From Candidatus Rokuibacteriota bacterium (GTDB lineage Bacteria > Methylomirabilota > Methylomirabilia > Rokubacteriales > CSP1-6), in contig JAUSJX010000037.1 in the NCBI GenBank assembly GCA_030647435.1, forward strand, positions 1-43,164: DNA of 43,164 bases. The letters run 5' to 3'. The notes beneath the pieces are model-generated. The model was not told the DNA's origin. It saw nothing but the letters and a program-made list of their open reading frames with translations, and did no database searches. Positions 23,671-25,807 of this stretch are shown here, piece after piece. Position 1 is the stretch's first letter; each line of letters begins with the position of its first letter. The position numbers were made by a program, and so were the translations under genes.

Positions 23671-23868
23671 ATGGCTCAGCGTTGCGACGTCTGTGGAAAG
23701 GGCCCGTCCGTCGGCCACAAGATCAGTCACGCCCACAATGTCACCAAGCGGCGCTGGCTGGCCAATCTCGTTTCGATGCGGGGCAAGATCGGCACGACAG
23801 GTGTGGTGCAGCGACTGCGCGTCTGCACCCGCTGCCTCAAGGCCGGCAAGGTCACCAAGGTCCTGTAA
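23671..23868 (+). CDS. rpmB: 50S ribosomal protein L28 (bL28)
   Basis: The 65-residue protein has the bL28 signature: MAQRCDVCGKGPSVGHKISH, then NVTKRRWLANL and a C-terminal VCTRCLKAGKV. C5, C8, C52 and C55 form two CxxC pairs, so this is the zinc-ribbon (C+) form. It is part of the large ribosomal subunit near the E site. A strong AAGGAG site and a TATAAA promoter precede it and a perfect 12-bp hairpin follows, so it is probably transcribed alone. Confidence 0.96.
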   Translation: MAQRCDVCGKGPSVGHKISHAHNVTKRRWLANLVSMRGKIGTTGVVQRLRVCTRCLKAGKVTKVL

Positions 23869-23886: not shown

Positions 23887-23914
23887 CGACGGGGGGCGTT
23901 GCCGCCCCCCGTCG
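23887..23914 (+). terminator. Hairpin downstream of rpmB
   Basis: CGACGGGGGGCG and CGCCCCCCGTCG form a perfect 12-bp stem around a TTGC loop, 18 bp after the rpmB stop. There is no T-run, so it is a strong hairpin rather than a textbook intrinsic terminator. It sits between convergent transcripts and could act on both. Confidence 0.6.
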
Positions 23915-23940: not shown

Positions 23941-23970
23941 GCCGGTGGAAGGCCGCCACCTCCCACCGGC
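23941..23970 (-). terminator. Hairpin downstream of the lysine-rich micro-genes
   Basis: GCCGGTGG (23941-23948) pairs with CCACCGGC (23963-23970) with a 14-nt loop. On the minus strand it begins 8 nt after the stop of the 13-residue peptide and is followed by GTTTACC. It is a plausible 3' end for that transcript. Confidence 0.4.
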
Positions 23971-23978
23971 CCAAAACA

Positions 23979-24020
23979 CTACTTCTTCTTCTTCTTGGCC
24001 GCCTTCTTCTTCTTCGCCAT
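23979..24020 (-). CDS. Lysine-rich micro-protein, 13 residues (copy 2)
   Basis: The minus strand reads MAKKKKAAKKKKK then TAG; nine of the 13 residues are lysine. Upstream, AAAGGGGGTGA sits 7 nt before the ATG, close to the perfect site in front of copy 1. The shared start (ATGGCGAAGAAGAAG) and leader layout indicate that copies 1 and 2 are tandem duplicates. Such a charged peptide could bind rRNA or DNA or interact with ribosomes, but no function is known. It would be missed by ordinary gene finders. It lies convergent to rpmB. Confidence 0.5.
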   Translation of the reverse strand: MAKKKKAAKKKKK

Positions 24021-24071
24021 TTGGAAGTCACCCCCTTTCCTCTGCAATCGTACGGCTGAGTGGCAGCGCGG

Positions 24072-24143
24072 CTAGTGCCGCTTGCGCCCCTTCGTCACCT
24101 TCCTCCGCTTTACGCTCGTCTTCTTCGCCTTCTTCTTCGCCAT
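24072..24143 (-). CDS. Lysine/arginine-rich micro-protein, 23 residues (copy 1)
   Basis: The peptide begins MAKKKAKKTSVKRRKV and ends TKGRKRH; 14 of 23 residues are Lys, Arg or His, with no acidic residue. AAGGAGGTGA, a full complement of the 16S rRNA 3' end, lies 8 nt before the ATG. This is the strongest ribosome binding site I see in the window and argues for real, high-level translation. A second peptide gene with a similar leader follows 51 bp downstream, and the AbiEi-like gene ends 70 bp upstream on the same strand. In size and charge it recalls the small ribosomal protein Thx, but the sequence is not Thx. Function unknown. Confidence 0.6.
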   Translation of the reverse strand: MAKKKAKKTSVKRRKVTKGRKRH

Positions 24144-24161
24144 TGGAGGGCTCACCTCCTT

Positions 24162-24213: not shown

Positions 24214-25260
24214 CTAGAAACCCATGGCCTCGCGGCGGAGGTGGGCCGCCTGCTCCCGGCCCCGCCGCTCGTAGTGGTAGAGGTCCGCGTACAGCTGAGG
24301 CAGGCACACGACCGGCACCCCGCTCTTCGTGATTGGCGCGTGGAAGACGCCCAGGTCGTAGGGCGCCAGGAAGTGGACGTTGCCCTCGTCCTCGCCAGGC
24401 CGGAGCCCCAGGGCCTTCGCCACCGGCTCCGGGTCACCCTCGATGTAGCAATGGATGGCCGGAAAACGGACATTGGGCGCCACGAGCGCCGCGCCCGCAT
24501 GGAGCGTGAACGCGACGCGCCGATCCGCCTCCTGGGCAGCGCGGGCGAGGTCGCCGACCAGCTTCCGCGTGATCCGCTCCGGCGAGAAGTAGGTCGCGAT
24601 CTCGTTGAGGCGATACGTGTAGGCGTCAACCCAGGCGTCGAGCAGATCGGCCGGCTTGCTCAGGTGGATGCGCTGCTGCTCGCCCCGCTCGACCCACGCC
24701 AGGTCGCCCAACCGCTTGACCACGTTGTGGGCGTGGCCGAGGCTGACCTGCGAGGCCTTCGCCAGCTCTTCGAGCCGCCAGAGACGGCTTGGATCGACGA
24801 GGAGCGTCCGGACCACCCGGGTCGCCCGGGGCGCGAAGAGGGCCTTGAGCGGCCGCGTGGACGGCCTGAGGTTGGGCTTTCCTTCCTTCTCGATCAGGAC
24901 ATTCCCGAAGGCGAGATAGCAATTCCCGGACAGGTCGAGGTAGCCCAGGCCGTTTCGCTTGAGGAGACCAGCGCCCTGGGGGCTGATGTACTGGGCGACG
25001 GCAACAGGGTAGGCCCCGTCCATCTCCGCGCGAAGCTCTCCTAGCCTGGTAATAGCCTCACGGATCTGCTTGGGCTGACCGACGGAAGTTACTTCGAGAA
25101 GCAAGGTCTGATCCTGGCCTCCGAGCTTGAATTTCACCAGCAGATCAGTCTTTTGGCCCTTGACCTTTGGGCCGGCAGACTCCTCCCATGCCACAGCCTT
25201 AGGGAACAGCTCCCGAAGCCGCTGGGCCACCGATCGCCTGATTTCCTGCGTATTCTCCAT
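24214..25260 (-). CDS. AbiEi-like winged-helix protein (orphan type IV antitoxin-like regulator)
   Basis: The 348-residue protein (start ATG 25260) has three parts. The N-terminal domain has a nuclease-fold look, with D39 (KTDLLVKF) and E56 (LLLEVT), but the usual lysine is replaced, so it may be inactive. GLGYLDLSGNCYLAFGNVLI (105-124) follows. A winged helix-turn-helix spans about residues 138-200 (RLWRLEELAKASQVSLGHAH). A C-terminal alpha/beta domain completes it. I match it to AbiEi-type antitoxins from memory, with moderate confidence. No AbiEii-like nucleotidyltransferase toxin is adjacent. Its promoter overlaps a perfect palindrome, consistent with autoregulation. An in-frame start at 25326 would lie in the -35 box and is rejected. 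Confidence 0.55.
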   Translation of the reverse strand: MENTQEIRRSVAQRLRELFPKAVAWEESAGPKVKGQKTDLLVKFKLGGQDQTLLLEVTSVGQPKQIREAITRLGELRAEMDGAYPVAVAQYISPQGAGLLKRNGLGYLDLSGNCYLAFGNVLIEKEGKPNLRPSTRPLKALFAPRATRVVRTLLVDPSRLWRLEELAKASQVSLGHAHNVVKRLGDLAWVERGEQQRIHLSKPADLLDAWVDAYTYRLNEIATYFSPERITRKLVGDLARAAQEADRRVAFTLHAGAALVAPNVRFPAIHCYIEGDPEPVAKALGLRPGEDEGNVHFLAPYDLGVFHAPITKSGVPVVCLPQLYADLYHYERRGREQAAHLRREAMGF

Positions 25261-25279: not shown

Positions 25280-25299
25280 TTTTCAGCGTACGCTGAAAA
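25280..25299. promoter_or_regulatory. Perfect 20-bp palindrome, probable operator
   Basis: TTTTCAGCGTACGCTGAAAA is its own reverse complement and AT-rich at both ends, standing out from the surrounding G+C. It begins inside the -10 box and covers the expected transcription start of the AbiEi-like gene, which encodes a wHTH protein. The layout is that of an autorepressor site. Confidence 0.7.
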
Positions 25300-25326
25300 C
25301 ATACGAACAATTGAAAGTGCTGTCAA
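25298..25326 (-). promoter_or_regulatory. Promoter of the AbiEi-like gene
   Basis: On the minus strand TTGACA (reverse of 25321-25326), a 17-bp spacer and TATGTT (reverse of 25298-25303) form one of the best sigma70-like promoters in the window. The palindromic operator overlaps the last two bases of the -10 and continues downstream. Confidence 0.7.
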
Positions 25327-25435: not shown

Positions 25436-25807
25436 CTACTGGCCCTGCTCGATGCCTTCCATCGTGTCGTCGTCGAGGCCGAAGTAGTGCCCGATCTCGT
25501 GGATGACCGTGTCCCGGACAAGCTCGGCCATCTCCGCGGCGTCGGCGCAGTCTTCCTCGATGGGCCCCTGGTAGATGTGGATCGTGTCAGGGAGGACGTT
25601 GCCGTACGAGGTATCGCGGTGGGTCAGGTCGATCCCGCGGTAGAGCCCGTAGAGCGTATCGGGCGGCTCGATGCCGACATCGCGCAGCGTCTCGTCGTCG
25701 GCCCAGTCCTCGACCACGATGGCGACGTTGGCGATTTTTTCCTTGAACCGGCGGGGCAGCGTGCGCAGGGCCCGCTCGACGAGGGCCTCGAACTCGCTGT
25801 GGGTCAC
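25436..25807 (-). CDS. Zincin-like metallopeptidase family protein (PF06262-type)
   Basis: The 123-residue protein has the small zincin signature HEIGHYFGLDDD (HExxH with a following aspartate) near its C terminus. The family's N-terminal FEALVERALRTLPRRFKEKI and the internal LYGLYRGIDLTHRD also fit. Such proteins are predicted metal-dependent proteases of unknown target. The GTG start at 25807 is chosen because it overlaps the rel stop as GTGA and places the first helix correctly. It is the last gene of the long minus-strand block. Confidence 0.88.
   Translation of the reverse strand: MTHSEFEALVERALRTLPRRFKEKIANVAIVVEDWADDETLRDVGIEPPDTLYGLYRGIDLTHRDTSYGNVLPDTIHIYQGPIEEDCADAAEMAELVRDTVIHEIGHYFGLDDDTMEGIEQGQ

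Follow-up and report, generated by a model that had tools for sequence, protein, structure and literature searches.

The closest described counterparts of the genes reported here are the histone H1-like proteins (Chlamydia Hc2, PF07382; NF038052/NF038053; Pseudomonas AlgP), and KPAA-repeat peptides of AlgP, which are rich in lysine and alanine, bind DNA in vitro (PMC9239181). Comparison is also due with the ribosomal proteins bL37 and bTHX, with the type IV toxin-antitoxin system AbiE and with amino-acid attenuation leaders such as HisL, in which a run of one residue behind a good Shine-Dalgarno (SD) sequence is followed by hairpins. Here we set against these systems a pair of lysine-rich micro-ORFs from a Candidatus Rokuibacteriota bacterium, found in a stretch of 43,164 nucleotides, which as a whole is called the window below, together with similar ORFs in other genomes.

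Both micro-ORFs lie on the reverse strand. Micro-ORF 1 (24072..24143) translates into the 23-residue peptide MAKKKAKKTSVKRRKVTKGRKRH, and micro-ORF 2 (23979..24020), recognised from its sequence and its conservation across genera, encodes the 13-residue peptide MAKKKKAAKKKKK. Their SD sequences, AAGGAGGTGA (24152..24161, reverse strand) and AAAGGGGGTGA (24028..24038, reverse strand), are located 8 and 7 nt before the respective ATG, which confirms the two same-strand ORFs of 23 and 13 codons behind strong SDs at matching distance that had been described in the initial annotation. Its statement that the first SD surpasses that of every large gene also held, since AAGGAGGTGA matches the complement of the 16S tail over 10 nt and no long ORF of the window exceeds 8 nt. 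The description of both sites as near-perfect applied to the first alone, as AAAGGGGGTGA has GGGGG in place of GGAGG and its longest exact match to the same complement is 6 nt. Over the whole window, RGGRGGTGA followed by an ORF of 8–35 codons, whatever its composition, was found just at micro-ORF 1 and micro-ORF 2. Comparable SDs elsewhere in the host genome precede mainly short secreted-like proteins, among them three of 82–88 aa with an AAAGGRGGTGA-type SD (L272, L278 and L279; G000:C12, C56 and C83), two of which are paralogues. On the far side of the pair lies rpmB (bL28; 23671..23868, forward strand), a landmark outside the unit, which is convergent to the micro-ORFs, as had been noted, so that they are not co-transcribed with this ribosomal gene.

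The arrangement proved to be constant among relatives. The 39 genomes sampled from this order of uncultured bacteria all keep the arrangement AbiEi-like gene, Lys micro-ORF(s), convergent rpmB, with at least one micro-ORF between the two genes in each of them and two in 36, and recG followed beyond rpmB wherever the contig extended far enough. The combined leader-plus-ORF pattern GGTGA-N4-10-ATG-GCN-AAR-AAR-AAR was present in 33 of 60 relatives, commonly as pairs approximately 70–125 nt apart, and 58 of the 60 genomes searched within the order had a relaxed pattern, with a count of 0 in the control (reversed pattern) in both cases. Matches against an empty control, together with the unbroken synteny, argue that the micro-ORFs are not due to chance, and by these comparisons they are real, conserved micro-genes. 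In the rest of the class, the relaxed pattern gave no micro-ORF in the 15 genomes of one family (f5), and in two others (f7 and f8) such ORFs come some 500 nt downstream of a wHTH gene. Frames and leaders are thus kept in relatives, as is the position beside rpmB, which supports the earlier proposal of selection on a tiny, cationic and strongly initiated product. The accompanying view that the two ORFs are duplicates of one another could not be substantiated, because the sequences are too short and an unlinked third copy also encodes the 13-residue peptide of micro-ORF 2. No named family had been recognised for the peptides, and none was matched in Pfam, NCBIfam or Rfam; a search of one literature library for these peptide strings and for small proteins of Rokubacteria likewise returned no paper.

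The composition of the ORFs indicates what is being conserved. Micro-ORFs of the order are 10–23 aa long, and the 67 distinct ones hold 572 Lys, 163 Ala and 40 Arg residues and no Asp or Glu. Lysine is encoded by AAG 528 times and by AAA 44 times, the codons GAG, GAA and CAG do not occur in these 67 ORFs though they are one step from Lys codons, and alanine is encoded with all four third bases. As a purine-rich RNA element would allow GAR codons, and the micro-ORFs do without them, it is the peptide, or its nascent form, that appears to be under selection; on codon evidence, selection acts on the amino-acid sequence. Of 73 micro-ORFs in the order, 61 have GGTGA 7–8 nt ahead of the start, and the ORFs are predicted to be translated. 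Their stops in the 67 distinct ORFs are TAG (45) and TAA (22), never TGA; since AAG and TAG are one base apart, the length of the micro-ORFs may shift that way. A frameshift site was considered and dropped, given that the runs are of AAG and not slippery A runs, and that the spacing between stop and hairpin does not preserve the frame.

The micro-ORFs are not isolated genes in the window. Upstream of them and on the same strand, where the initial annotation had placed it, lies an AbiEi-like gene (24214..25260, reverse strand) that heads a predicted operon of which the window pair forms the distal genes. The encoded regulator combines a PD-(D/E)XK-like N domain, a wHTH and an AbiEi_2 C-terminal region; it scored 26.8 bits against PF09952 (cut-off 21), its AF2 model had a mean pLDDT of 88, and Foldseek returned repair endonuclease/EndoMS structures as best matches of this model (E 3.5e-4) over approximately 100 columns, corresponding to the N domain. 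In this domain Asp39 is invariant and Glu56 almost so, and the customary ExK lysine is not kept (EVxS). The gene on the other side of the regulator (25436–25804) is Zincin_1.

The operon with its promoter and operator-like site, the conserved hairpin and the free-standing third copy were all absent from the initial annotation. The promoter, TTGACA-N17-TATGTT (25298..25326, reverse strand), has its TTGAC at equal distance in other genomes, and the palindromic operator-like site TTTCAGCGTACGCTGAAA (25281..25298), beside the -10, occupies the same location ahead of the AbiEi-like gene throughout the order. Wherever the region upstream of this gene was available, it contained TTGAC(A) as -35 and TTTCAGC-NNNN-GCTGAAA, or a close variant, beside the -10. 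Of the 30 genomes scanned in the order, 27 have a single copy of the exact palindrome and two have none; one further genome (G002) had two exact palindromes and two operon copies, and the scanned genomes of the class outside the order had none. With one such site per genome, the AbiEi-like regulator probably governs its own operon alone. Assessed by eye, the leaders of the AbiEi-like start carry no strong SD, unlike those of the micro-ORFs.

Two hairpins follow the pair. Hairpin 1, GCCGGTGGGAGGT-GGCG-GCCTTCCACCGGC (23941..23970, reverse strand), begins 8 nt past the stop of micro-ORF 2; its stem has at least nine pairs in 37 of 38 loci, and in most of them the GGCG loop and a near-invariant stem are kept. 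Its core occurs once in the host genome, and the idea of a dispersed repeat was rejected on this ground. The conservation of this hairpin across genera exceeds what a terminator needs. Hairpin 2 (23887..23914, reverse strand), GC-rich and with a T-rich tail, resembles an intrinsic terminator and would end the micro-ORF transcript. Conservation of the hairpins hints at a possible additional role of the transcripts at the RNA level.

With the patterns used, one further gene of this kind was found in the host genome, on another contig (G000:C30:28856), and this third copy was examined in 38 loci. TTGACA is present in 37 of these, 62–138 nt before the start, with a mostly TAGCAT- or TAGAGT-like -10 located 17–18 nt beyond it, and the stop is followed in 35 of 38 loci by a hairpin, CGGCCCTG-N-CAGGGCCG, in which substitutions at the inner pairs leave the pairing intact. 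With about one occurrence per genome, beside the micro-ORF, a hairpin of that sequence was likewise rejected as a dispersed repeat. In most genera the neighbours are a divergent gene for a B12-binding domain upstream and, downstream, a convergent nrdR and then a glyA-like gene; in the genus of the window and some others pyrE lies upstream, in part with an EamA-like gene downstream, and in some genera the EamA-like gene follows the third copy in the same direction. Having its own promoter, hairpin and neighbours, the third copy is a gene in its own right.

Upstream of the third-copy promoter lie two CCCC-NNATNT-GGGG-like boxes, approximately 31–33 bp apart. NrdR boxes are known with such a spacing, about three helix turns (PMC12051234; PMC9110341), and the third-copy boxes fit them in spacing and core. 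The boxes near ribonucleotide reductase (RNR) genes of the same genomes are CACAATATCTTGTGG-like, with CACA/TGTG arms, and the CCCC/GGGG arms of the third-copy boxes differ from these, so that NrdR may not bind here. Control of the third copy by NrdR is therefore put forward as a hypothesis only, and at the window operon no box pair of the NrdR type was found. Two genes for the RNR large chain (L253 and L259; G000:C86 and G015:C129) occupy very long open frames, of 1593 and 2316 aa, in which the family matches are split, perhaps by inteins.

Similar ORFs were also returned from outside the class by a collection-wide scan, in which the distribution beyond the class is to be read as a sample among the matches listed. 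In AT-rich genomes many matches proved to mark where a long, unrelated gene begins, and these were discarded. In Brocadiales-type Planctomycetota, three loci among the matches listed (L099, L119 and L162) have the order nrdG, micro-ORF, smc, and in one of the three nrdR belongs to the same run; a conserved sequence and a TTGACA-like promoter lie between micro-ORF and smc. Elsewhere in the Planctomycetota listed, the same start and SD precede AAKKKV repeats that reach 40 aa, and the longer AAKKKV-repeat ORFs of Sedimentisphaerales/Phycisphaerae have, in the matches listed, mostly nadD divergent and lysA downstream. Several of these loci (L074, L107, L144, L181 and others), in which the Lys-repeat ORF of 18–40 aa precedes lysA, have a terminator-like hairpin in between. 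In Levyibacteriota (L148, L150 and L176), an ORF of the MAKKKKKKKK type follows serS, with secA next in two of these three listed matches, and inverted repeats of the TTGGTAA...TTACCAATTGATCAGTTGGTAA type and then a terminator-like hairpin come after the ORF. In-frame examples with near-perfect SDs were listed from Eisenbacteria, Omnitrophota, Elusimicrobia and some archaeal bins as well. For sequences so short, common descent of the micro-ORFs across phyla cannot be demonstrated.

The lysA context is, among the matches listed, the only setting that would suit a lysine attenuator. It gave rise to the idea that the micro-ORFs are leader peptides, which was rejected both for the window, because the pair is followed by a terminator and the convergent rpmB, and for the third copy, because its downstream neighbour is mostly the convergent nrdR. 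Judged by these surroundings, the micro-ORFs are regulated genes, not leader peptides.

Taken together, the reading that we favour, with a confidence that falls a little short of even, is that the micro-peptides are diffusible polycations that neutralise and compact nucleic acid, most likely DNA, in the manner of a detached Lys/Ala tail of histone H1 or AlgP type. The AbiEi-like wHTH protein would act on its own promoter only, through the single TTTCAGC-N4-GCTGAAA site. As the regulator is without a strong SD and the micro-ORFs have very strong ones, the main protein output of the operon would be the peptides, predicted to be highly translated, short and disordered, Lys-rich, 10–23 aa long and without an acidic residue. 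Released as free polycations, these would neutralise and compact nucleic acid, DNA foremost, and the NrdR-like boxes of the free-standing copy may adjust its expression to the supply of DNA precursors. Polyanion binding is suggested by the composition of the peptides, and DNA is favoured because of the longer H1-like relatives, the nrdR/nrdG neighbourhoods and the DNA binding of the AlgP peptides. A link of NrdR to the state of DNA has precedent, since NrdR of Pseudomonas aeruginosa also acts on topA, a DNA-topology gene (PMC4409342). A polycation of 10–13 residues would nevertheless bind any polyanion, so DNA is not singled out by such a peptide. The differing arms of the third-copy boxes and the absence of the genes from family f5 likewise speak against this reading.

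A possible alternative is that the micro-peptides, in the manner of bL37 or bTHX, serve as accessory proteins of the ribosome or bind rRNA. Their size, charge and strong SDs fit, and the pair adjoins rpmB in 39 of 39 genomes; rpmB is convergent rather than co-transcribed, however, and the partner gene codes for a wHTH regulator, genomes hold two to three similar copies, and none of the copies listed from other phyla adjoins a ribosomal protein gene. A search of PDB sequences with the peptide of micro-ORF 1 returned no chain at E up to 10, a result of little weight for a 23-residue query of low complexity. On balance we consider a ribosomal role unlikely. Equally unlikely in our view is that translation itself is what matters, with poly-Lys synthesis slowing ribosomes as they reach the end of the ORF, thereby affecting the downstream hairpin, termination or transcript decay. 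An effect in the exit tunnel would select Lys runs without acidic residues in the same way, and a conserved hairpin begins approximately 8–27 nt past the stop. Such an effect would have no obvious target in cis, however, because what lies downstream is a terminator and the convergent rpmB in the window and, in most genera, the convergent nrdR at the third copy.

Slightly more doubtful still is a toxin-antitoxin-like pair, in which the micropeptides would serve the AbiEi-like PD-(D/E)XK-wHTH protein as neutraliser, cofactor or toxin. The AbiEi_2 match of the regulator, the one palindromic operator-like site, typical for an autoregulated module, and the adjacent, co-directional micro-ORFs in 39 of 39 genomes are consistent with it. 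The locus nonetheless occupies one fixed chromosomal site across the order rather than a patchy distribution, no AbiEii gene adjoins it, and the third copy is without an AbiEi-like gene. The paralogous AbiEi-like loci examined have no micro-ORF, and the idea that the micro-ORFs are constant companions of AbiEi-like genes was rejected for this reason. We regard it as very improbable that the RNA is the product, that is, a short structured regulatory RNA with SD-rich and hairpin segments and a secondary ORF: stem sequences are kept beyond pairing and the third-copy transcript would be only about 150 nt, but the ORF is constrained at the amino-acid level, the hairpins of window and third copy have no obvious common sequence, and there was no match in Rfam. 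Binding of polyphosphate or another polyanion instead of nucleic acid, brought to mind by the association of AlgP, with its Lys-rich H1-like tail, with polyphosphate granules (PMC9239181), is the least probable, as no polyphosphate gene was noticed beside any copy and the neighbours that recur by theme are nrdR and nrdG.

Returning to the polycation reading, the wider proposal that stand-alone polylysine micro-genes of approximately 8–40 codons with near-perfect SDs form an unrecognised class in several phyla, their products being free polycations that act as a regulated counterpart of the H1 tail and are tied in some lineages to deoxynucleotide supply, is tentative and rather unlikely to hold. 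Genes of 10–23 codons fall under the usual annotation cut-offs, and this micro-gene family has probably remained unannotated; standard annotation would miss it. The promoters, ribosome-binding sites, amino-acid constraint and hairpins of such tiny genes are all legible from sequence, and the near-perfect SD with the MAKKK start offers a simple way to find them elsewhere. Should the peptides prove to bind DNA or RNA, then bacteria would possess free, regulated polycations akin to detached H1 tails, and a link between the supply of DNA precursors and the state of the nucleoid could be tested directly by way of the nrdR/nrdG neighbourhoods.

Compared with the described systems, the micro-peptides share with bL37 and bTHX their size and charge, but there is no detectable sequence match and they come in two to three copies outside ribosomal operons. 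The window operon resembles AbiE in being headed by an AbiEi_2-containing wHTH regulator with a palindromic operator-like site; it differs in that the next ORFs are micro-ORFs, with no AbiEii nucleotidyltransferase gene adjoining, and in the added PD-(D/E)XK-like N domain. Like attenuation leaders of the HisL kind, the micro-ORFs have a run of one residue behind a good SD, then hairpins, whereas a regulated gene downstream is missing in the window and, in most genera, at the third copy. The window peptide gave no profile match with Hc2 (PF07382) or NF038052, and the Planctomycetota relatives reached at best 10.2 bits (cut-off 40) and 7–8 bits (cut-offs 80–135) against H1-like profiles; these weak echoes of their repeats in Hc2 and H1-like DNA-binding proteins are far under the cut-offs and perhaps due to composition only. 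As the H1-like cut-offs were not reached, no solved chain was matched and no AbiEii adjoins, the micro-peptides are assigned to none of these families. The H1-like proteins are 100–350 aa long, and the micro-peptides, at 10–23 aa and with no folded domain, are tiny separate ORFs in up to three copies per genome. They are nevertheless Lys/Ala-rich, without acidic residues and presumably disordered, as the H1-like proteins are, the longer Planctomycetota forms carry the same kind of AAKKK/VAKKK repeats, and by this analogy the micro-peptides may work like H1 tails.
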